Shown here piece by piece: positions 30,257-40,101 of a stretch of DNA of 64,000 nucleotides. Below the pieces are notes generated by a model. It made no database searches, was not told the DNA's origin, and saw only the letters and a program-made list of their open reading frames with translations. The position numbers and the translations under genes were made by a program. The stretch's first letter is position 1. Each line of letters begins with the position of its first letter. Origin of the DNA: Sphingobacteriales bacterium 46-32 (GTDB lineage: Bacteria; Bacteroidota; Bacteroidia; Chitinophagales; Chitinophagaceae); the NCBI GenBank assembly GCA_001898485.1, contig MKTY01000020.1:1695203-1759202 (forward strand), read 5' to 3'.

Positions 30257-30302
30257 AAAGCGCTGTTTAACCAGGTTGTACCAGGTTTTGCAGCGCTTTT
30301 TC
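30257..30302 (+). terminator. Probable terminator after the M28 peptidase
   Basis: AAAGCGCTG (30257-30265) and CAGCGCTTT (30291-30299) form a 9-bp stem around a 25-nt loop, followed by TTCT. The right arm lies within the last codons of argH on the other strand. The long loop lowers confidence. Confidence 0.5.
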
Positions 30303-31604
30303 TATTGCATCGAAGGGGAATGACTGATAAACTGTTTGCATACGCTGGCGGATTGCCTCTGTACACAGATTGCCGATAGAGCCTTCATGTGTATGATGAA
30401 TGCCGGTCTGATAAGTGAACTGGCCGTTTTCAATCGCCATACCTATCTGCTTATAGGCATCACGGAAAGGAACACCCTGCAATACCAGTTTATTGACCTC
30501 TTCCACGCTGAAGAGATATTTATATTTCTCATCGTTCAGCAGGTTTTCTTTTACCTGCATATGCGACAGCATAAGTCCGGCCATTTCGATACAGCTGCGT
30601 AAAGTGGCAAAGGAAGGAAAGAGATGCTCTTTCAGCAATTGCAGATCACGGTGATAACCAGATGGCAAATTGGTAGTCATGAGCATGATCTCGTTGGGCA
30701 GGGCTTTGATGCGGTTGCAATGGGAACGGATCAGCTCAAATACATCGGGATTCTTTTTATGCGGCATGATACTGCTGCCTGTAGTAAGCTCGGCCGGAAA
30801 GCTGATAAAATCGAAATTCTGATTCAGATACAGACAGGCATCCATACTCAGGCGTGCCAGTGTATCGGCTACATTGGCCAGCGCCTGTGCTACCACGCGT
30901 TCTGCCTTACCCCGTCCCATCTGGGCGTATACCACATTGTAATTAAGATCAGCAAAACCCAGCAGCTGTGTTGTAAGAGTGCGATTGATCGGAAAAGAGG
31001 AACCATACCCTGCGGCAGAGCCTAATGGGTTTTTATTTACTATATCGAAGGCTGCGTGGAGCGTAATGCAGTCATCGACCAGACTCTCGGCATAAGCTCC
31101 CAGCCAAAGGCCGGCTGAGGAAGGCATGGCCAGTTGCAAATGGGTATAACCGGGCAGCAAATGATCTTTTAGTTCTTCACTGCGCGATTGCAGTAACCCG
31201 AAAAGTGGTTGAATAGCTTTGACAGTAAGTTCGAGTTCATGCCGCAGATACAATTTGATATCTACCAGCACCTGGTCATTACGACTGCGCGCGCTATGAA
31301 TTTTTTTACCTGTATCTCCCAGTTTTTGCGTGAGCAGCAGCTCAACCTGAGAATGGATATCTTCCACATCTTCCTGCAATTGAAAATCGCCTGCACTGAT
31401 GCGACTGTAAATGTCACGTAAAGCCGCCTGCAGGGTTTTCAGTTCGCCGGCAGTGAGTAATCCCACTGTTTCCAGCATCTGTATATGTGCCAGTGAGCCC
31501 AGCACATCAAAGGCCGCCAGGTAGAGGTCCATCTCACGGTCTTTGCCCACAGTGAAGCTTTCTACTTCTTTAAGCGATGCTTTGTCTTTTTGCCAGAGTT
31601 TCAT
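30267..31604 (-). CDS. argH: Argininosuccinate lyase
   Basis: ArgH of 445 residues, which splits argininosuccinate to arginine and fumarate, the last step of arginine synthesis. The fumarase/aspartase-superfamily signature GSSIMPHKKNPD is near residue 277, with HSARSRNDQV and GYTHLQLAMPSS earlier. It is the last gene of the arginine operon, 32 bp after argE'. Confidence 0.95.
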   Translation of the reverse strand: MKLWQKDKASLKEVESFTVGKDREMDLYLAAFDVLGSLAHIQMLETVGLLTAGELKTLQAALRDIYSRISAGDFQLQEDVEDIHSQVELLLTQKLGDTGKKIHSARSRNDQVLVDIKLYLRHELELTVKAIQPLFGLLQSRSEELKDHLLPGYTHLQLAMPSSAGLWLGAYAESLVDDCITLHAAFDIVNKNPLGSAAGYGSSFPINRTLTTQLLGFADLNYNVVYAQMGRGKAERVVAQALANVADTLARLSMDACLYLNQNFDFISFPAELTTGSSIMPHKKNPDVFELIRSHCNRIKALPNEIMLMTTNLPSGYHRDLQLLKEHLFPSFATLRSCIEMAGLMLSHMQVKENLLNDEKYKYLFSVEEVNKLVLQGVPFRDAYKQIGMAIENGQFTYQTGIHHTHEGSIGNLCTEAIRQRMQTVYQSFPFDAIEKALQNLVQPG

Positions 31605-31636
31605 GGCGTATAGTTTATACCGGGTTTAAGAAATAA

Positions 31637-32722
31637 TTATGCTGTTGGCGGCAATACTACCTGATCCAGCAATTTTATATAAAGTTCAATCCCTGCATTT
31701 ATCTCATCCACATATATAAATTCATCTGCAGTGTGGCTACGGGCCGAGTCGCCTGGCCCCATTTTAAGTGCCGGAAAAGGCATGAGTGCTTTGTCTGATG
31801 TGGTGGGCGATCCATAATAGCTGCGCTCCAGTTTAAGGCCGGCAGCAACCAGCGGATGATCCAGTGCAATTGATGTAGAGCGCATCCGCATGCTGCGGGG
31901 GGTAACCTCACATTTCACATGACTGCGAATCCATTCTACTACTTCCTCAAACCTGTACAATTCATTGATGCGGGTGTCTACCACGAAGCGGCAGGTGGCG
32001 GGCACTACATTGTGTGCCTTATTTTCCGTTTCAATAACGGTGACACTCATTTTAGATGGTCCAAGCAAGGGCGATATCCTTTCAAGTGTAGCCGTCCTGA
32101 ACCATTCAATATCTTCCAGTGCTTTATAAAGAGCATTATCCCCCTCATTGCGGGCTGCATGACCGGCTTTACCGTGGCTCACACAATCCAGTACCATGAG
32201 TCCACGCTCGGCCACAGCCATCTGCATAAGCGTTGGTTCGCCTACAATGGCACAATCTATTGGTGGCAGGTACTGCAGGGCATATTCAATGCCCCCGGTG
32301 CCTGATATTTCTTCTTCTGCAGTGGCCGCCAGCACCAGGTTATACTGCAGATTATTAATAGCGTAGTAATGCAGAAAGGTGGCAATCAGCGATACCAGGC
32401 AACCGCCGGCATCGTTGCTGCCCAATCCATACAGGCGGCCATCTGCCTCATCGGGTGCAAAAGGGTTACGGCTGTATTGAGGGTTGGGTTTTACCGTATC
32501 ATGATGCGAGTTGAGCAGGATGCTGGGCTTGGTCGGGTCGAAGTATTTATTCTTTGCGAATACATTGTTACCAACCCGTGAAGCTTCTATCTGGCGCACT
32601 GCCAGAAATTTGGCGATAGCAGATGCTGTGCCATCTTCTTCCCTGCTAAAGGAGGGAATGCTGATGAGCTCTTTGAGCAGCAAAAGCGCATCCTGCTGCA
32701 GTGTATTTAACGAATTATTCAT
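31637..32722 (-). CDS. argE: M20-family N-acylornithine/N-acylcitrulline deacylase
   Basis: A 361-residue zinc-dependent deacylase. Metal-site motifs are ILLNSHHDTV, LGSNDAGGCL, AATAEEEISGTGG and AIVGEPT. The frame extends upstream, but ATG at 32722 (MNNSLNTLQQDA) overlaps the argB stop by 8 bases, as argB itself overlaps argF', so this is the likely start. In Bacteroidota, where ArgF' carbamoylates an N-acylated ornithine, this enzyme would act on N-acylcitrulline. The acyl group, acetyl or succinyl, cannot be read from this gene. Confidence 0.9.
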   Translation of the reverse strand: MNNSLNTLQQDALLLLKELISIPSFSREEDGTASAIAKFLAVRQIEASRVGNNVFAKNKYFDPTKPSILLNSHHDTVKPNPQYSRNPFAPDEADGRLYGLGSNDAGGCLVSLIATFLHYYAINNLQYNLVLAATAEEEISGTGGIEYALQYLPPIDCAIVGEPTLMQMAVAERGLMVLDCVSHGKAGHAARNEGDNALYKALEDIEWFRTATLERISPLLGPSKMSVTVIETENKAHNVVPATCRFVVDTRINELYRFEEVVEWIRSHVKCEVTPRSMRMRSTSIALDHPLVAAGLKLERSYYGSPTTSDKALMPFPALKMGPGDSARSHTADEFIYVDEINAGIELYIKLLDQVVLPPTA

Positions 32723-33500
32723 TGATAATGGTCGTACCGGACTGTCCCTCGATAAGGCTTGGCAGGTTTTCAGCCTTGCCAATGATGACCCTGCCTACGC
32801 CGCTGTCAAGTGCAGCAAATGCATTATCGAGTTTGGGCAGCATACCGGCAAATATTTTTTGTTTCGCCTTCAGTTGCTGGTAATATTCACGATTCAGTAC
32901 AGCAATGACGGTATTATCGTCGGCGGCATCCAGCAATACGCCGCTTTTTTCAAAACTATATATCAGCGATACATCGTAGTGATGGCTTAGCCCCTTTGCC
33001 AGTTCCTGAGCAATCGTATCTGCGTTGGTATTGAGCAGCTGTCCCTGCTGATCGTGTGTGATGGGGGCAAATACAATGCTTATCTGCTGATCAAGCAGCA
33101 GGCTGATCAGCGGCTGGTTGATGGCATCTACATCGCCTACAAATCCGTAATCCAGTACAGGATGTTTGCGTTTATGCGCCAGTATGGCATCTCCATCTGC
33201 ACCGCAGAGCCCGATTGCGTTGCACTGAAAGGCCTGCAGTTGCGCCACGATATTCTTATTCACATAGCCGGCATATACCATGGTCACAATCTTAAGCGTC
33301 TCCGCATCGGTTATACGGCGGCCATCGACCAGTTGCTGCTCCACGCCCATTTTTTCTGCCAGCCGCGTGGCCAATTTGCCTCCACCATGTACCAGTATCT
33401 TGCGGCCAGGGATGGCTGCAAAATGTGCAAGAAACTGATTGAGCTTGGCCTCATCATCAATAATGTTGCCGCCTATCTTAACGATATATAGTTTATCCAT
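32715..33500 (-). CDS. argB: N-acetylglutamate (or N-succinylglutamate) kinase
   Basis: An amino-acid kinase of 261 residues that phosphorylates N-acylglutamate. KIGGNIID and VHGGGKLATRLAEKMG form the nucleotide and substrate sites, and IGLCGADGDAI and NTNADTIAQELAKGL follow. It overlaps argF' upstream and argE' downstream by 8 bases each, showing tight coupling. Confidence 0.93.
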   Translation of the reverse strand: MDKLYIVKIGGNIIDDEAKLNQFLAHFAAIPGRKILVHGGGKLATRLAEKMGVEQQLVDGRRITDAETLKIVTMVYAGYVNKNIVAQLQAFQCNAIGLCGADGDAILAHKRKHPVLDYGFVGDVDAINQPLISLLLDQQISIVFAPITHDQQGQLLNTNADTIAQELAKGLSHHYDVSLIYSFEKSGVLLDAADDNTVIAVLNREYYQQLKAKQKIFAGMLPKLDNAFAALDSGVGRVIIGKAENLPSLIEGQSGTTIINE

Positions 33501-34458
33501 TTGACTGTAAAATGGTGGAGAGTACGGCCTGGGCTGCCCATACCCGGTTGCCGGCTTCCTGCGTTACGAGACTATTGGGCCCATCGAGCACTTCGTCGCT
33601 CAGCTCTACATTTCGGCGCACAGGCAGGCAGTGCATGACCTTGGCATTGTTGGTTGCCGCAAGTTTTTCCTGTGTCAGCATCCAGTCGGGGTCATTGGAA
33701 TAGATGCGGCCGTAGTCATTAAACGTACTCCAGTTTTTTACATATACGAAATCGGCATCGCGTAATGCTTCGTCCTGGTTGGTGGTGATAGTTGCCCCTT
33801 TTGTAAATTGTTCACTCAACTCATAGTCTTCGGGGTGAGTAATTACAAAATCGGCTTTTCCCCAGGCAGTCATCCATTGAGAAAAGCTGTTGGCTACACA
33901 CTGGGGCAGCTGTTTTACATGTGGTGCCCAGGTGAGTACGATTTTGGGTTTACGGCCACCGGCCAGCTGCGGATAATTTTCCGTAATCGTAATCACATCC
34001 GTGAGGCTTTGCAGCGGATGCAGTGTGGCGCTTTCCAGGCTTACTACCGGAATGCCGGCATATTTGATAAATTGTTTAATGTAGAGTTCGCTGTAATCAT
34101 CTTCGCGGTTTTTGAGCGAAGGAAAGGTTCGGATAGCCAGGATATCAAAATACTTTCCGAAAATAGGAGCCGCATCTTTTACATGTTCTACCGTGTTGCC
34201 ACTCATGATGGCTTCTTCTTCAAACTCAAGTGCCCAACCTTCACTGCCTACATTAAATACAATTGACTCCATGCCCAGGTTATGTGCGGCAATCTGTGTA
34301 CTGAGGCGCGTGCGCATACTGGGATTAAGAAATAAACAACCGATACGTTTATTAGCCCCCAGGGCCTTATCGATCAGTGGTTGAGATTTGTAGGCCAGTG
34401 CTTTTTGTACCAGCCCGTCAATATCGGGCACATCATCAACGGAAATAAACTGTTTCAT
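33493..34458 (-). CDS. argF': N-acylornithine carbamoyltransferase (ArgF')
   Basis: A 321-residue transcarbamylase. The carbamoyl-phosphate loop reads NPSMRTRLSTQ, HPLQSLTD follows, and HCLPVRRNVELSDEV is the C-terminal signature. It belongs to the Bacteroidota/Xanthomonas branch acting on N-acylated ornithine rather than ornithine. The residue known to choose between acetyl and succinyl substrates (Pro90 in the Bacteroides enzyme, Glu92 in Xanthomonas) aligns by my count with Val90 in SGNTVEHV; a small residue here would favour succinylornithine. That alignment was done by eye. Confidence 0.92.
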   Translation of the reverse strand: MKQFISVDDVPDIDGLVQKALAYKSQPLIDKALGANKRIGCLFLNPSMRTRLSTQIAAHNLGMESIVFNVGSEGWALEFEEEAIMSGNTVEHVKDAAPIFGKYFDILAIRTFPSLKNREDDYSELYIKQFIKYAGIPVVSLESATLHPLQSLTDVITITENYPQLAGGRKPKIVLTWAPHVKQLPQCVANSFSQWMTAWGKADFVITHPEDYELSEQFTKGATITTNQDEALRDADFVYVKNWSTFNDYGRIYSNDPDWMLTQEKLAATNNAKVMHCLPVRRNVELSDEVLDGPNSLVTQEAGNRVWAAQAVLSTILQSNG

Positions 34459-34460
34459 TC

Positions 34461-34709
34461 TTACTTCGGTTTGAGCTTGTTGATCTCTTTTTTTAATTCG
34501 GTAAAAAAATACTTTTTGATCAGGTAGTACAGATAAAACGGCAATATTAATAACTCATATACGATAATAACCCTGCTTAATTTATATATTCTGTTGGCAG
34601 AGGGCACTACTAAACCGGTAATCAGGTCAAGCAATAATGGCAGTACCACCAGGATAGTCAACACCACCAGTGGGCCTGCACTGCTTTTATTATTACGCTC
34701 ATCAGTCAA
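34461..34709 (-). CDS. Small two-helix membrane protein within the arginine operon
   Basis: An 82-residue frame that fits exactly between argD and argF', 2 bp from each, so it is very likely translated. It has two hydrophobic segments (PLVVLTILVVLPLLLDLI and VIIVYELLILPFYLYYLI) and a basic C-terminus rich in Lys. I do not recognise a family. It could be a membrane anchor or small regulator, or a passenger gene with no link to arginine. Confidence 0.65.
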   Translation of the reverse strand: MTDERNNKSSAGPLVVLTILVVLPLLLDLITGLVVPSANRIYKLSRVIIVYELLILPFYLYYLIKKYFFTELKKEINKLKPK

Positions 34710-34711
34710 GC

Positions 34712-35872
34712 TTATGCATTAGCAGCTTCAGCTTCTGTCAGCAAAGCGATCTCTTCTTTCAATGCTTCGATAAAATCTTCGGCATCTCTTTTCTTCAATG
34801 CCAGCGAGGGAAGCAAACGGATGACATTGGGTTTTGCTTCGCCGGTAAATATCTTCTGATTCCAGAGCAGGTTGCGCTTCAGGTCTTTCAACTCTTCGGG
34901 CACATCAAAACCAATCATAAGGCCACGTCCGCGTACATTACTGATCTGGGGAATTTCTTCCAGGGCATCGCGCAGGTATTTTCCTACCATTACGGCATTG
35001 CCCATGAGCTTTTCTTCCTCAATGATCTCCAGCACAGCCAGTGCGGCAGCACAGGCCAGGTGATTGCCGCCAAACGTAGTGCCCAGTTGAAAGTGTTTGG
35101 GTTTGATATGCGGCGCTACAATAATGCCTGCTACGGGGAAGCCATTGCCCATGCCCTTGGCCATGGTATAGATATCTGCATTTACGCCGGCAAAATCATG
35201 GCTAAAAAATTTGCCGCTGCGGCCATATCCGCATTGTACGCTGTCGGCAATATATACGGCACCATATTCATCGCACAGTGTGCGAATGGCTTTCAGAAAA
35301 CTTTCATCGGCTACATTAATACCACCTACACCCTGTATGCCTTCAACGATTACAGCGGCTATTTCTTTGCCCTCGCCGGCAAAGCAGGCCTTCAGCGCTT
35401 TGGTATCATTGAAAGGCAAAAAGATTACATTGTCGGTTTCATTTACGGGGGCTACATAGTTCTTATTGTCGGTCACCGCTACGGCGAGTGAGGTACGGCC
35501 GTGGAATGATTTGGTGAATGCCACGACCTTTTTGCGGCCGGTATGGAATGATGCGAGCTTAAGCGCATTTTCATTGGCTTCGGCTCCGCTATTGCACAGG
35601 AAAAGCTGGTAATCTTCTTTTCCCGAAAGTTTGCCCAGCTTCTGAGCCAGCTGTTGCTGAATGGGTATGCGAACGGAGTTGGAATAAAAAGCCAGTTTTT
35701 CAAGTTGCTCTTCGATACGTTTTACCCAGTGGGGGTGGGTATGGCCAATGCTGATCACCGCATGGCCGCCATACATATCCAGATACTGCTCGCCTTTATC
35801 GTCCCACACATAGGAGCCTTTGGCTTTAACGATCGTGATCTCGTTGATTGGGTAAACGTCGAATAAATTCAT
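34712..35872 (-). CDS. argD: N-acylornithine aminotransferase
   Basis: A class III PLP aminotransferase of 386 residues converting N-acylglutamate semialdehyde to N-acylornithine. Substrate and cofactor motifs include NSGAEANENALKLAS, IADSVQCGYGRSGKF and the PLP lysine in TMAKGMGNGFPV. The start overlaps the stop of the four-helix-bundle gene (ATGA). Confidence 0.93.
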   Translation of the reverse strand: MNLFDVYPINEITIVKAKGSYVWDDKGEQYLDMYGGHAVISIGHTHPHWVKRIEEQLEKLAFYSNSVRIPIQQQLAQKLGKLSGKEDYQLFLCNSGAEANENALKLASFHTGRKKVVAFTKSFHGRTSLAVAVTDNKNYVAPVNETDNVIFLPFNDTKALKACFAGEGKEIAAVIVEGIQGVGGINVADESFLKAIRTLCDEYGAVYIADSVQCGYGRSGKFFSHDFAGVNADIYTMAKGMGNGFPVAGIIVAPHIKPKHFQLGTTFGGNHLACAAALAVLEIIEEEKLMGNAVMVGKYLRDALEEIPQISNVRGRGLMIGFDVPEELKDLKRNLLWNQKIFTGEAKPNVIRLLPSLALKKRDAEDFIEALKEEIALLTEAEAANA

Positions 35873-36273
35873 GTTATAGAAGGTTGGGGGTTGAAGGAAG
35901 GGGGTTGAGGGTTATTATTTTTTCTGAGAAAGCGGATGAATGAAATAAGCATCGCTCTCGTTTCATTAATATACTTATGTATTGATTTGTAATCATTTTC
36001 TGAAATATAGTTTAACTCAAAAGCGGCAAAACAACAGTAGTCAACTTCATTGGCAGAGCCTAAAGCATTATCAAGGAAATGGGCAAAATCTTTGTCAGAA
36101 GCTCTGCCACATCCTTCTACGATATTCAATACCACGGATAACGATGCTCTTTGCAGTTGTGAACTTAATTCAAATCGTTCTGAAGGAGGGAAGTTTTTAG
36201 CTATTGATCGCTTCACAAACAAGTATTGTTCGTGAGCTTTTTTCCATACAGCTAATTTTCTGAAGTCTCTCAT
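35869..36273 (-). CDS. Four-helix-bundle protein of the 23S rRNA intervening-sequence family
   Basis: A protein of about 134 residues beginning MRDFRKLAVWKKAHE, with the hallmark NIVEGCGRASDKDFAHFL and LGSANEVDYC of S23/IVP proteins. These were first seen encoded in rRNA intervening sequences, but many lie free in chromosomes; their function is unknown. It is inserted between argC and argD. A Shine-Dalgarno sequence AGGAGGTGA, unusual for this phylum, precedes it. The tail NNNPQPPSFNPQPSIT is encoded by a simple CAACCCCC/TTC-rich repeat, so the C-terminus may have been altered by repeat insertion. A GTG at 36276 is an alternative start. Confidence 0.85.
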   Translation of the reverse strand: MRDFRKLAVWKKAHEQYLFVKRSIAKNFPPSERFELSSQLQRASLSVVLNIVEGCGRASDKDFAHFLDNALGSANEVDYCCFAAFELNYISENDYKSIHKYINETRAMLISFIRFLRKNNNPQPPSFNPQPSIT

Positions 36274-36285
36274 CACATAATCATT

Positions 36286-36294
36286 TCACCTCCT
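36286..36294 (-). promoter_or_regulatory. Strong Shine-Dalgarno sequence before the four-helix-bundle gene
   Basis: AGGAGGTGA on the minus strand, 9 bp before GTG 36276 and 12 bp before ATG 36273. I see no comparable full anti-16S match before the other genes, which fits the weak Shine-Dalgarno use of Bacteroidota and suggests a separate origin for this gene. Confidence 0.6.
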
Positions 36295-36365
36295 AAAATT
36301 AGTCTATTATCCAGATACAACCTTATCGTATTCCTTTTTCCTTCAACCATTCACCTTTTACCTCT

Positions 36366-37355
36366 CTAAAAATAGGCTGCTTTTAATTTCAGCCCCGCCT
36401 CCTCATTGAGCCCAAACATCAAATTCATATTCTGTACAGCCTGGCCACTGGCACCTTTCAGCAGGTTGTCGAGTGCTGAATGAACGACCAGTTTGGTGCC
36501 GGCTTTTTCCAGTTGCACCACTGCTTTATTCGTATTCACTACCTGCTTCAGGAAAATAGCATCGCGGCTCACTTTCGTGAAGGGGTGATCCTTATAATAA
36601 TTGGTAAATAAAGTATAGAGTTCTTCAACGCTCAGATCGCAATGAATAGTTGAACTTACAAAAATGCCCCGCGTAAAATCGCCACGCCAGGGTACAAAGC
36701 TGATATCAATATCAGTATTCGGTTGCAGTTGCAGAAGAGACTGGCCAATCTCGCCCAGGTGCTGATGCGTAAGTGTTTTATAGGCCTGGATGTTGTTGGC
36801 ACGCCAGCTGAAATGGGAAGTGGTGCTGAGTGACTGGCCGGCTCCGGTTGACCCGGTAATACCGGTTGTATAGATATCGCCCAGTAAACCTGCTTCTGCA
36901 AGTGGCAGTAATCCCAGTTGAAGTGCAGTGGCAAAGCAACCCGGGTTGGCCACATTCTGTGCCGTACGGATAGCATCGCGGTTGAGTTCGGGCAGACCAT
37001 ATACAAACTGCCGGCCGGCGATGCTGGATTGTGGTGCCAGCCTGAAGTCATTGGCAAGGTCAATGATACGCGTATGCGCAGCAATTTTATGTTCGGTCAG
37101 GAAATTGCGCGATTCGCCATGACCCAGGCAAAGAAATAGTACATCAATATCGCTGCTCAGTGTATCGGTAAAAAGTAAACCGGTATCGCCGAGCAGGTCC
37201 TGGTGAATACTCGAAACAGGTTTACCTGCATTGCTGCGGCTGTGAACAAAGGAGATACTCGCCTGTGGATGTTGAACCAGCAGACGTATAAGCTCACCGC
37301 CGGTATAACCAGCGCCACCAATGATCCCAACCCGTATATTGTTAAGCGTACTCAT
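36366..37355 (-). CDS. argC: N-acetyl-gamma-glutamyl-phosphate reductase
   Basis: ArgC of 329 residues, an NADPH-dependent semialdehyde dehydrogenase. The nucleotide fold is VGIIGGAGYTGGELIRLL and the catalytic cysteine lies in ANPGCFATALQLG; HLGEIGQSL contributes later. Third gene of the arginine operon. The gap to argG (91 bp) holds a family A repeat, and the gap after it leads into the four-helix-bundle gene. Confidence 0.95.
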   Translation of the reverse strand: MSTLNNIRVGIIGGAGYTGGELIRLLVQHPQASISFVHSRSNAGKPVSSIHQDLLGDTGLLFTDTLSSDIDVLFLCLGHGESRNFLTEHKIAAHTRIIDLANDFRLAPQSSIAGRQFVYGLPELNRDAIRTAQNVANPGCFATALQLGLLPLAEAGLLGDIYTTGITGSTGAGQSLSTTSHFSWRANNIQAYKTLTHQHLGEIGQSLLQLQPNTDIDISFVPWRGDFTRGIFVSSTIHCDLSVEELYTLFTNYYKDHPFTKVSRDAIFLKQVVNTNKAVVQLEKAGTKLVVHSALDNLLKGASGQAVQNMNLMFGLNEEAGLKLKAAYF

Positions 37356-37412
37356 TTTTCAAGATTCAAAATTTGATAATTTGAAGATGAAATCAAATCC
37401 GAACTTCAAATT

Positions 37413-37448
37413 CATCAGCACATTTCCACATTAGCACATCAGCATATT
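37413..37448. repeat. Family A repeat array, copy 3
   Basis: CATCAGCACATTTCCACATT and AGCACATCAGCAT repeat the CATYAGCA unit in the argG-argC gap. Beside it (37356-37412) is an AT-rich imperfect repeat of TTCAAAATTTGATAATTTGAA type. Confidence 0.65.
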
Positions 37449-38643
37449 ATTCATTGTCTGTTTTCACCAGATGATACATCATGGTTTGGTTGCCGAAGAT
37501 GCGGCTGAATCCGCGAACATCTTCACCGGTGAATCCTGTATTCATTTCACCGTATTTGCCAAACTTGCTGTTCATAAGATCAAATTTGCTTTCGATGCCG
37601 ATGATCTGGAAGCGATAAGGCTGCAGTTGCACAAATACATCGCCGGTTACATTACGCTGACTGCTTTCGAGGAAGGCTTCAATGTCGCGCATTACCGGAT
37701 CCAGAATCTGGCCTTCATGCAGCCAGTTGCCATAGAACTGAGCCAGCTGGTCTTTCCAGTTGAGCTGCCATTTGGTGAGCACATGTTTTTCGAGTGCATG
37801 GTGTGCCTTGAGAATTACCATGGGAGCTGCGGCTTCAAAACCCACGCGGCCCTTGATGCCAATGATGGTATCGCCTACGTGAATGTCGCGACCCAGGCCA
37901 TAAGGACCGGCAATCTGCTGCAGGTGCTGAATGGCTTCGGAAGGGTGGCTGAAGCTTTGATCATTTACTTTGCGCAGTTCTCCTTTTTCAAAATGCAGGG
38001 TTACTTCTTCGCTGCCTGTGCGGGTGACCTGGGTGGGCCAGGCTTCTTCGGGCAGTATACCTTTTGAGGAGAGTGTTTCGCGGCCCCCCACGCTGGTACC
38101 CCAGAGCCCTTTATTGATGGAGTAGGCGGCTTTGGCAAAGTTCATGTCCACGTTTTTACCTTTCAGGTATTCGATCTCTGCCTCGCGGCTCAGTTTCAGG
38201 TCGCGGATAGGGGTGATGATCTCCACACCCGGTATCATGATATGAAAGATCATATCGAAACGAACCTGGTCATTGCCTGCACCGGTACTGCCATGTGCCA
38301 CTGCATCGGCATTCAGTTCCTTGGCATGATCGGCAATATGAAGAGCCTGGCTGAGGCGTTCGGCAGATACGCTGAGGGGGTAGGTATTATTCTTAAGCAC
38401 ATTACCGTAAATCAGAAAGCGGATGATGCTGTCGTAATAGCTCTTTACAGCGTTGACGGTTTTGTGTGTTTTAACGCCCAGTTTATAGGCATGTGCTTCT
38501 ATCTGGCGGAGTTCTTCATCAGAAAAGCCACCTGTGTTCACGATGATGCTGTGCACTTCGTAGCCCAGGTCATCGGTCAGGTATTTAACACAGAAGGAAG
38601 TATCTAATCCGCCACTGAAACCCAGTACAACTTTTTTTGCCAT
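37447..38643 (-). CDS. argG: Argininosuccinate synthase
   Basis: ArgG of 398 residues, which joins citrulline and aspartate using ATP. The PP-loop LGFSGGLDTSFCVKYL lies at 7-22. AHGSTGAGNDQVRFD and YSINKGLWGTSVGGRE are further family signatures. It follows the GNAT gene by 16 bp and is the second gene of the operon. Confidence 0.96.
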   Translation of the reverse strand: MAKKVVLGFSGGLDTSFCVKYLTDDLGYEVHSIIVNTGGFSDEELRQIEAHAYKLGVKTHKTVNAVKSYYDSIIRFLIYGNVLKNNTYPLSVSAERLSQALHIADHAKELNADAVAHGSTGAGNDQVRFDMIFHIMIPGVEIITPIRDLKLSREAEIEYLKGKNVDMNFAKAAYSINKGLWGTSVGGRETLSSKGILPEEAWPTQVTRTGSEEVTLHFEKGELRKVNDQSFSHPSEAIQHLQQIAGPYGLGRDIHVGDTIIGIKGRVGFEAAAPMVILKAHHALEKHVLTKWQLNWKDQLAQFYGNWLHEGQILDPVMRDIEAFLESSQRNVTGDVFVQLQPYRFQIIGIESKFDLMNSKFGKYGEMNTGFTGEDVRGFSRIFGNQTMMYHLVKTDNE

Positions 38644-38659
38644 CGTTTATTCAACAGAT

Positions 38660-39379
38660 TTATAAATGAAATAAATGGTGCAATAATGATTTTGGTTTGC
38701 TGCCACCTCCATTACTCTGGCCATTTGAGTCGCGCTTGAGGAAGGGGCGCAGCAGTTTCCATTGTTTAAAGCGAAGCAATCGTTCAAAGCCTTTGGCGTT
38801 TTCCTTGAAGTATTTCTTTGTTTCTTCAGGCTGGTAATGATCTTTGGGATCAAACAGCATGGCGGTGCACATGCAGTTTTTCCGGTCCTTACTCATCAGG
38901 ATTTCATAGTTCACACAGCTTTTACAGCCTGCCCAGAACGCGTCATCCTGCGTAAGTTCGGAATAAGTTACGGGTTCATACCCCAAATCGGAGTTGATTT
39001 TCATCACGGCCAGCCCGGTAGTAAGTCCAAAGATTTTGGCTTCGGGATATTTCTGGCGTGAAAGGTTGAAAATCTTTTGTTTAATAGATTTTGCCACACC
39101 GCTTTTGCGGAAAGCGGGGGCAACGATGAGACCGGAATTGGCCACGTATTCGCCATGACTCCAGGTTTCGATATAGCAAAAGCCCACCCATTCGCCGCTG
39201 CGGGTAAGGGCAATGACTGCTTTTCCTTCGTCGATTTTTTCGTCAATATAAGATGGGCTTCGTTTGGCAATACCGGTACCACGGGCTTTAGCCGACGACT
39301 CCATCTCCTCGGTAATGAGGGTTGAATATTTTTTATCATCAGGGGTTGCTACCCTTACGATGATCTCTTGATTGTCCAC
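38660..39379 (-). CDS. GNAT-family acyltransferase, probable N-acylglutamate synthase
   Basis: A 239-residue GNAT protein starting with GTG at 39379; a later ATG would remove the first beta strand. The acetyl-CoA region is SGLIVAPAFRKSGVAKSIKQKI, and the C-terminal part is Cys-rich (GCKSCVNYEILMSKDRKNC). It is the first structural gene of the arginine operon, which has no argA or argJ, so it probably makes N-acetyl- or N-succinylglutamate. Bacteroides uses a GNAT protein for this step. Operon position is the main evidence here. Confidence 0.8.
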   Translation of the reverse strand: MDNQEIIVRVATPDDKKYSTLITEEMESSAKARGTGIAKRSPSYIDEKIDEGKAVIALTRSGEWVGFCYIETWSHGEYVANSGLIVAPAFRKSGVAKSIKQKIFNLSRQKYPEAKIFGLTTGLAVMKINSDLGYEPVTYSELTQDDAFWAGCKSCVNYEILMSKDRKNCMCTAMLFDPKDHYQPEETKKYFKENAKGFERLLRFKQWKLLRPFLKRDSNGQSNGGGSKPKSLLHHLFHL

Positions 39380-39440
39380 TCTGAAAGATTAAAATTGTGC
39401 GCGGATGACCAGTCCTGAAGTTGTTGCCGGAGAAAGTTCA

Positions 39441-39476
39441 CTGACAGGGACCGTGGTTAGGGGTTCGTCCTGTCAG
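39441..39476 (-). promoter_or_regulatory. Hairpin in the arginine operon leader overlapping the leader peptide stop
   Basis: In the transcript CTGACAGG(AC) (39467-39476) pairs with (GT)CCCTGTCAG (39441-39451), with one bulge and a 15-nt loop. The leader peptide stop codon lies in the 5' arm. The 3' arm can instead pair with CAGGAC at 39410-39417, giving two exclusive folds. There is no T run, so the control may be on translation of the GNAT gene. Confidence 0.6.
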
Positions 39477-39595
39477 CATTCAGGGCGGCGTCGCGGGCGG
39501 GAAAAGGTAAACACATCAAATCCTACAGCATACACTCCACTGGTAATGGGTGCATGGAAGGCAAATTGTTTTGTATGTGTCAAAATATTGCTCAC
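39473..39595 (-). CDS. Arginine-rich leader peptide of the arginine operon
   Basis: A frame of about 40 codons, starting at GTG 39595 or TTG 39583, that ends FTFSRPRRRPEC. Five of nine consecutive codons before the end include four arginine codons (CGC CCG CGA CGC CGC). It lies in the long leader between a -7 box (39623) and the first arginine gene. Its stop codon falls inside the hairpin at 39441-39476. This is the arrangement of an attenuation leader in which ribosome stalling at scarce arginyl-tRNA changes RNA folding. No ATG start is present, so the exact start is uncertain. Confidence 0.6.
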   Translation of the reverse strand: MSNILTHTKQFAFHAPITSGVYAVGFDVFTFSRPRRRPEC

Positions 39596-39622
39596 CTCTA
39601 AAAGGTTTCTTAAATTGGATTA

Positions 39623-39656
39623 CAAATGTATAATAATAATCGGGTTATATCCACAA
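39623..39656 (-). promoter_or_regulatory. Promoter of the arginine operon
   Basis: On the minus strand TTG (39654-39656), 23 bp and TACATTTG (39623-39630) fit TTG-N17-23-TAnnTTTG at the long end. A start near 39616 gives a leader of about 237 nt. The rest of the 300-bp gap to the divergent gene shows only AT-rich sequence. Confidence 0.5.
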
Positions 39657-39681
39657 AATTTTTTGTTATAAAACAGAATCC

Positions 39682-40101
39682 ATGACCAGCGGAAACCTTA
39701 ATCCCCGGCCGGCATTTACAGGCATGCGAAAATTTCTCCGAACGTTTGTTATAATCCTGATTCTACTGCTGGCATTATTTATATATTGGAAATATTACTA
39801 TGTAATCGGTGATGGGGTAAAATCAGGGTATCTCAATTTTGCCGTGAGAAAAGGCCAGCTTTTTAAGACCTACGAAGGCAAACTGATTCAGGAGGGATTA
39901 CGCAGCAAGGTAGCGGGCTCCATTCAGTCGAATGAGTTTGAATTTTCTATCAGCAACAAACGGGTTTATGATACGCTGTCTCTCAACAGCGGAAAGATTT
40001 TTGACCTTCATTATAAAGAGTATAACGGTGCAATTCCCTGGCGTGGCTATACCCGCTATATAGTTGACAGCATCATCTCCATGCGCGATCCGGATCGTTG
40101 A
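39682..40101 (+). CDS. Conserved single-pass membrane protein
   Basis: A 139-residue protein. If it starts at ATG 39724 (MRKFLRTFVIILILL), it begins with one membrane helix, followed by a small soluble domain with EGVKSG-like DGVKSGYLNFAVRKG, FKTYEGKLIQEG and HYKEYNGAIPWRG. I recognise this as a Bacteroidota conserved family with no proven function; some database entries give it a misleading enzyme name. It is divergent from the arginine operon and stands alone. Confidence 0.7.
   Translation: MTSGNLNPRPAFTGMRKFLRTFVIILILLLALFIYWKYYYVIGDGVKSGYLNFAVRKGQLFKTYEGKLIQEGLRSKVAGSIQSNEFEFSISNKRVYDTLSLNSGKIFDLHYKEYNGAIPWRGYTRYIVDSIISMRDPDR

Follow-up and report, generated by a model that had tools for sequence, protein, structure and literature searches.

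The arginine biosynthesis operon of Sphingobacteriales bacterium 46-32, a member of the Chitinophagaceae, is preceded by a short reading frame that ends in a cluster of arginine codons and by a conserved RNA element that begins at the stop codon of this frame. Both lie on the minus strand of the stretch of 64,000 nucleotides analysed here (the window). Comparison with related loci indicates that together they probably form a ribosome-sensed arginine leader of the operon, in which stems P1 and P2 of the element would be folded when the ribosome stalls. The sensor part of this interpretation is well supported by the comparison, and the alignments demonstrate a selected reading frame, an arginine cluster with a marked choice of codons, the stems P1 and P2, and an association with the operon. 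An earlier proposal made from the letters of the window (the sequence-only reading) had described an arginine leader peptide of an arginine operon, and this agrees with the conserved codon type, peptide and position and with a genome that has no ArgR match.

Organization of the operon and its leader

The features of the region are listed in Table 1. The argF-like gene of the operon resembles N-acetylornithine carbamoyltransferase genes, and the argE-like gene encodes an M20 deacylase. The match of the GNAT protein (38660-39379) to the Pfam acetyltransferase family is weak (21.6 bits) and its nearest solved chain is PA4794; judged by position in the operon, the product is a candidate N-acetylglutamate synthase. 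A PF05635 gene (23S rRNA intervening sequence protein/four-helix bundle) lies within the operon at 35869-36276, with argC on one side and argD on the other.

The sequence-only reading had placed a -7 box at 39623, and a TAnnTTTG sequence is indeed found there. The strict promoter pattern (TTG plus TAnnTTTG) occurs upstream of the leader in 32 of 95 loci compared with 2.9% of mononucleotide shuffles, and the median distance from the promoter to the leader stop is 155 nt in the 32 loci that have the pattern. No match to ArgR (PF01316) was found in the genome of Sphingobacteriales bacterium 46-32, and 55 of 148 genomes of the phylum have one. In genome G222, five Arg_repressor matches of equal score lie at separate places on one contig and resemble a repeated mobile gene, not ArgR.

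Table 1. Positions of the operon, leader and RNA features in the window
Feature	Position	Strand	Basis or remark
argG, argC, PF05635 gene, argD, argF-like, argB, argE-like, argH	30267..38643	-	Downstream of GNAT
GNAT acetyltransferase gene	38660..39379	-	GTG start, heads the arginine operon; Pfam PF00583, 21.6 bits
P3 hairpin GGACTGGTCATCC, GGT in loop	39403..39415	-	82.3% of cells paired, some compensatory changes
Linker: conserved TGAA, then C-rich, G-poor stretch	39416..39440	-	Alignment
P1 3' arm CCTGTCAG	39441..39448	-	Pairs with 39469-39476
P2 3' arm	39450..39452	-	Covariation
ACC in P2 loop, may form a loop-loop contact with the P3 GGT (39408-39410)	39455..39457	-	Complementary columns
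P2 5' arm	39462..39464	-	Covariation
Internal ACGA, mostly conserved	39465..39468	-	Alignment
P1 5' arm CTGACAGG, holds the leader stop codon	39469..39476	-	100% of cells paired, 81 distinct sequences
Leader peptide ORF	39473..39595	-	GTG start, 40 aa, VSNILTHTKQFAFHAPITSGVYAVGFDVFTFSRPRRRPEC*; stop TGA 39473-39475
Regulatory codons CGC CCG CGA CGC CGC (R P R R R)	39485..39499	-	Window sequence
-7 box TACATTTG (TAnnTTTG)	39623..39630	-	Sequence; recurrent pattern
-33-like TTTG, Bacteroidota-type promoter	39654..39657	-	Sequence; strict pattern (TTG + TAnnTTTG) recurrent in loci

Loci compared

A GNAT match was obtained in 155 of 195 Chitinophagaceae genomes, from which 30 loci were retained, the window's own among them, and the best 80 of 544 confirmed GNAT places in named genomes were added. 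Removal of 14 duplicates left 96 loci; L018 is N-masked, so 95 were readable, including the window's own. These 95 loci are not independent, and L001 and L002 are near identical across the leader region. The stop codon in P1 fixed the leader in 84 of the 95 loci; in the remaining 11 the leader was selected by its arginine count from a range of distances. For an outer set, the sequence preceding argG was taken from 40 genomes that belong to other families, orders and classes; nine of these had no GNAT match (one of them, L167, has just 377 bases), which left 31 loci for scoring. A further family set was taken upstream of GNAT in 20 Chitinophagaceae genomes outside the covariance-model positives. 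In both of these sets, which lack the RNA element, every leader was chosen by arginine count within the distance range, and the same picking was applied to shuffles and to the reverse strand as a control. The control for arginine counts in the 95 loci comprised 18,648 segments from other reading frames. Mononucleotide shuffles were the control for pairing energies, terminators, the promoter and the leaders of the outer loci.

Conservation and choice of arginine codons

The minus-strand frame at 39473-39595, for which four arginine codons in five had been noted, is present, and its arginine-rich end recurs among the relatives. The leader frames stop 90-123 nt ahead of GNAT, and in 79 of the 95 loci their final 12 codons include three or more arginines, compared with 8.0% of control segments. 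At least two arginines are found in 93 of the 95 loci (23.6% of control segments), and the two leaders with a single arginine are those of L024 and L081. The choice of codons is also narrow. The 95 leaders contain 121 CGA, 90 CGC, 77 CGT, four AGA, three CGG and three AGG codons, and CGA followed by CGA, CGC or CGT occurs in 82 loci. Thus CGA, CGC and CGU make up 288 of 298 arginine codons in the leaders and 464 of 922 in the GNAT genes, where the counts are AGA 208, CGT 195, CGC 189, AGG 139, CGG 111 and CGA 80. CGU, CGC and CGA are decoded by one tRNA. In the genome of the window, of which 30 of 38 tRNA matches were examined, ACG, CCG, CCT and TCT are each represented by a single tRNA-Arg gene. 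Because 288 of 298 leader arginine codons fall to one tRNA, codon identity, beyond the amino acid alone, appears to be under selection in the leader.

Arginine-rich leaders extend beyond the loci that carry the RNA element. In the outer loci, at least three arginines occur in the last 12 codons of the upstream reading frame in 24 of 31 cases, compared with 2.8 expected from shuffles and three on the reverse strand. Chitinophagaceae loci without the element have an arginine-rich leader in 18 of 20 cases (1.8 expected from shuffles, none on the reverse strand). The C-terminal ends vary by clade and include RRRP*, RRP*, RRPRI*, VRR* and IPRRR*. Five of the 31 outer loci (L149, L150, L151, L155 and L156) have no arginine-rich leader within the expected range. 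Another conserved small reading frame, MNKxSLHITSLSRTxxPxTSPEVRxL, is found about 230 nt upstream of GNAT in L150, L151 and L156, shortly after the promoter-like sequence TGTACTTTTGCACC. Among the genomes behind the 31 outer loci, that of L154 alone is ArgR-positive (about 27 bits), a count that assumes the same draw of 148 genomes; operon type and phylogeny are confounders of this split.

Selection on the peptide body

Window-type peptides, picked by the pattern L/F-x-H-T-K-Q/H, were found in 55 of the 95 loci. In all 55 the start codon lies four codons ahead of the motif (ATG 36, GTG 17, TTG 2). For the 27 codons of the body, the reading frame itself gives a pN/pS of 0.171 and the two alternative frames give 2.41 and 2.49 (800 pairs), where the fixed H, T and K of the selecting pattern lower pN slightly; the value for GNAT is 0.135 (400 pairs). 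It is therefore the frame that is conserved, with synonymous sites varying freely, which is the opposite of a DNA segment kept with its frame lost. Residues F, Y, V, D and P are invariant at five positions of the body and end in the 55 sequences; H, T and K are invariant as well, but belonged to the selecting pattern. A profile of the body detects just two of 86 other leaders, L098 and L187, above shuffled decoys, and similarity of the leader body across clades was rejected. Since pN/pS is as low as 0.171 within the group and the profile matches so few leaders outside it, the body is conserved inside the group and for the most part replaced across groups, with the arginine cluster retained. 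The window peptide has no Pfam or NCBIfam match, and no Pfam match to PF10940 (SpeFL/ORF34) was obtained up to E 1.

Pure codon sensing would not predict that the peptide body is under selection. TnaC and SpeFL are arrest peptides that respond to their ligands, and the leader could likewise act as a nascent-chain arrest peptide, in which the conserved body in the exit tunnel and the RPRR end would sense free arginine or a related metabolite and cause arrest near the end of the reading frame. A body conserved like an enzyme, the five invariant positions and the similarity that extends to L098 and L187 outside the group all point in this direction. However, the apparent selection on codon identity would be needless for a peptide sensor, and the body is not recognizably the same in 84 of 86 other leaders, where the arginine cluster stays. 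As the explanation of the leader, the arrest peptide is considered unlikely.

A conserved RNA element at the leader stop codon

The leader stop codon begins a conserved element in 84 of 96 loci and lies within its 8-bp P1 stem. The consensus over the 84 loci is C-TGA-YAGG-ACGA-RCC...GGY-CC-CTRTCAG-TGAA. A stem containing the stop codon had been predicted by the sequence-only reading with arms at 39467-39476 and 39441-39451; such a stem is present, and its exact arms are 39469-39476 and 39441-39448. The conserved RNA is larger than this stem and comprises P1, P2, a linker and P3. In 81 distinct sequences, seven of the eight P1 pairs never vary and the eighth changes from C-G to U-A in nine sequences and to U-G in eight. 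P2 is paired in 96.7% of cells and shows A-U/G-C and C-G/A-U exchanges. Taken together, the structure is 95.8% paired, a value reached by none of 500 shuffles, and RNAalifold recovers P1 and P2 unaided. In a blind covariation scan the second and fourth ranks went to P2 pairs and the tenth to the variable P1 pair; the top pair and several others touch the coding region and seem to track the type of peptide. The folding energy of the window element alone is not unusual (z 0.05), and the case for the RNA element is comparative. As seven invariant pairs of eight exceed the need of a simple stem, sequence-specific recognition of the P1 letters is possible.

The core of the element is followed by the C-rich linker and by GGAYTGGTnnYCC or near variants in 73 of 84 loci, and P3 is missing in 11. 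The linker has a mean of 30% C and 10% G in the 73 loci, and the distance from the end of P3 to the GNAT start is 20-28 nt in 68 of the 69 loci scored. A contact between the P2 loop (ACC) and the P3 loop (GGT) is possible. The two are complementary at their columns in 72 of the 73 loci that have P3, with L022 shifted by one, and the same columns are also complementary in five of the 11 loci without P3 (AAA/TTT or GCA/TGT). A clear compensatory change, GCC/GGC, occurs in L017 and L028 only, both of one genus (g23); otherwise the contact involves largely invariant letters. The pair counts at columns 39-112 and 40-111 include A-U cells of the loci without P3, so the contact is weaker than these counts suggest.

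Alternative folds and the output step

The sequence-only reading had proposed an attenuator in which the P1 3' arm is released from P1 and pairs with CAGGAC. This pairing is possible in the window, where CAGGAC lies at 39412-39417, and shows no covariation across relatives; as a switch it is not supported, with one pair broken in 33 of 80 scorable sequences. The corresponding 3:4 structure (the P1 3' arm and P2 with P3) does surpass shuffles as a whole (none of 500 as high). It has the ACC/GGT pairs in common with the P1-P2-P3 model, and 81.2% of cells are paired in the part that is its own. No compensatory change is seen in the 3:4 helix at columns 47-48 with 106-107, the broken pair is that of columns 46-108, and changes in L066 and L106 preserve P3 and break the helix, as the alignment is read. 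The 3:4 helix was therefore rejected as a competing fold, and of the covarying stems that had been looked for, P1 and P2 covary and this helix does not. An upstream 1:2 hairpin (columns 8-13 with 22-27) was also rejected, being paired in 70.4% of cells compared with 70.5% in shuffles. Covariation thus supports none of the alternative folds between which the ribosome position would select.

In a classical transcription attenuator, an intrinsic terminator would form ahead of GNAT except when the ribosome is stalled at the arginine codons. The leader, arginine codons and stems of such a system are present. A terminator-like site occurs between leader and GNAT in 17 of 95 loci compared with 10.4 in mononucleotide shuffles, and the same loose scan, on a set that has no shuffle control, gave a site in 28 of 46 additional loci (26 from outer genomes and 20 from the family). 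In L147, a GACCC/GGGTC hairpin followed by a T run lies over the leader end. However, 78 of the 95 loci have no terminator-like site before GNAT, and the window leader has no intrinsic terminator; as the sequence-only reading had noted, no T run follows the stem. Classical attenuation is regarded as quite improbable.

The switch had alternatively been suggested to act on translation of GNAT. This is possible, with GNAT start codons being GUG in 43, UUG in 32 and AUG in nine of 84 loci (the start is at the aligned position in 76 and was assigned nearby in eight), but the folding tests gave no support. Mean accessibility of the start region over the 84 loci was 0.545 with the ribosome at the arginine codons and 0.553 with the ribosome at the stop, and a shift above 0.1 between the two positions was found upward in four loci and downward in seven. 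Average duplex energies between the linker or P3 and the start were -8.26 for real, -8.27 for shuffled and -9.03 for mismatched partners. Sequestration of the start codon by P3 or the linker was dropped, as accessibility did not shift consistently with the position of the ribosome and the duplexes are no better than shuffled ones. Complementarity of the P1 3' arm exceeds that of shuffles in 66 of 84 loci for the start region and in 65 for the linker/P3 region, and in comparison with the regions of other loci its own is better in 42 and 45 of 84, respectively. Because the letters involved hardly vary, these counts neither support nor exclude pairing of the P1 3' arm with the start or with the linker/P3 region.

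Two further ways of coupling the leader to GNAT were rejected. A second reading frame from the conserved GTG after P1 (39441) stays open beyond the start of GNAT in 30 of 84 loci, by estimate about the share expected for random sequence of this length. Reinitiation after the leader does not fit, as the distances from leader stop to GNAT (90-123 nt) are far from the peak of 11-14 bp given for Bacteroidetes in the available part of the source (PMC4833913).

Distribution of the element

A covariance model of the element gave one strong match in the genome of the window (E 1.5e-18), the next being at 0.33. Under stricter filters, one copy each was found in 35 of 117 Chitinophagaceae genomes, all 35 directly upstream of GNAT, and four of 247 genomes of the phylum matched, all four of them Chitinophagaceae. 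The element is absent from all 60 further loci (40 outer, 20 Chitinophagaceae). Rfam gave no match for the whole window at the gathering threshold or for 39300-39700 up to E 5. Since the copies are confined to Chitinophagaceae and all lie upstream of GNAT among the genomes searched, the element looks like a family-level partner to a more widespread leader. Other structures were also seen. In a clade-specific element of L161, L163, L164, L165 and L172, a short hairpin over the RRP-stop codons is followed by a conserved loop AGGTGAGTCC with a GGAAC/GTTCC-like closing stem, and L152 and L154 have a weaker form of it. Loci with VRR-stop leaders (L099, L101, L103, L186 and L204) share, beyond the stop codon of the leader, a hairpin resembling CATAGTRTYC...GGAACTATG.

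The invariant P1 letters and the conserved ACGA and TGAA would also suit a metabolite-binding riboswitch or a protein-binding site formed by P1-P2-P3, with the leader merely setting the timing. This reading is highly improbable, as every one of the 84 loci with the element has the stop codon within P1, all 35 copies in the family genomes sit at GNAT, and loci without the element retain the arginine leader. That the frame encodes an ordinary small protein, placed in the leader by chance, is hardly credible: its body is under purifying selection, but it changes by clade and has no Pfam or NCBIfam match, and position, arginine cluster and operon link stay constant.

Proposed mode of action

In the ribosome-sensed leader, a ribosome on the 40-residue reading frame would read the CGN cluster served by one tRNA-Arg. 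Scarcity of charged tRNA-Arg would stall it at the arginine codons, just upstream of P1, so that P1-P2 could fold and perhaps touch P3 near the GNAT start. The footprint of a ribosome reaches about 12-15 nt ahead of the decoded codon. With plentiful arginine the ribosome would reach the stop codon and, because this codon is part of P1, would have to melt the stem. We infer that stalling tracks arginine and that P3 may contact P2. The expected sign is that folded P1-P2 corresponds to the operon being on, because a biosynthetic operon should be expressed when its amino acid is short. As the output, initiation of GNAT translation or Rho-dependent termination would be favoured over an intrinsic terminator. 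Regulated initiation would fit the end of P3 at 20-28 nt before GNAT and the predominance of GUG and UUG starts (75 of 84). Involvement of Rho would fit the C-rich, G-poor linker, as in the Salmonella speF leader, and is only a lead. To our knowledge, Bacteroidota hardly use Shine-Dalgarno pairing. A broader version, tentative and rather unlikely as a whole, is an arginine sensor found across the phylum Bacteroidota that reads arginine codons and nascent peptide jointly; in Chitinophagaceae, the stop codon of the leader would be a structural part of a fold (P1-P2, perhaps a pseudoknot with P3) that signals arrival of the ribosome at the end of the frame, and occupancy of the stop codon would be the readout, instead of a terminator or Shine-Dalgarno masking.

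Relation to known leaders and significance

In attenuators of the trp and his type, a leader peptide with clustered codons for the amino acid of the pathway lies ahead of the biosynthetic operon. The leader described here shares the clustered codons and their position; unlike that type, its intrinsic terminators are not clearly enriched, the proposed competing helix lacks covariation, and the peptide body is selected. The nearest system in logic appears to be the orf34 leader of Salmonella speF. According to the available part of its report, consecutive arginine codons in orf34/speFL cause pausing at low arginine that picks an alternative fold, and the leader has no intrinsic terminator and acts via Rho, sequestration of the ribosome binding site and RNase G (PMC6386406). 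The window leader is similar in its short reading frame with arginine codons, conserved peptide and lack of an intrinsic terminator. In contrast, orf34/speFL controls ornithine decarboxylase and not arginine synthesis, its peptide belongs to PF10940, to which the window leader has no match, and a stop codon inside an invariant stem, as in the window, is not described for speFL in that part of the report (PMC6386406). The available text on Staphylococcus aureus rbfL describes another leader with arginine codons and translational control under arginine limitation; it differs in that stalling covers the ribosome binding site of a biofilm regulator and so represses it, in another phylum and at another gene (PMC13009471). 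In Flavobacterium psychrophilum, of the same phylum, leader-peptide candidates have been reported with a general statement on amino-acid operons, and the available part of the main text names no arginine case and no such RNA element (PMC9723704). The available part of a survey of structured RNAs and uORF motifs has no mention of argG or Bacteroidetes (PMC8632094). Among the open-access papers listed, titles and abstract openings describe no arginine leader in Bacteroidota, and no account of arginine control in Bacteroidota without ArgR was found in the open-access literature.

Overall, the leader is judged to be a new, arginine-specific variant of leader-peptide control, in which the peptide appears widespread in the phylum and the RNA specific to the family. 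A codon-counting leader present in several classes is a testable answer to how arginine synthesis may be controlled without ArgR, and would extend the range of pathways under leader-peptide sensing to arginine synthesis. It may also provide a compact model of control without a terminator and without Shine-Dalgarno masking, in which the stop codon is built into the regulatory stem.
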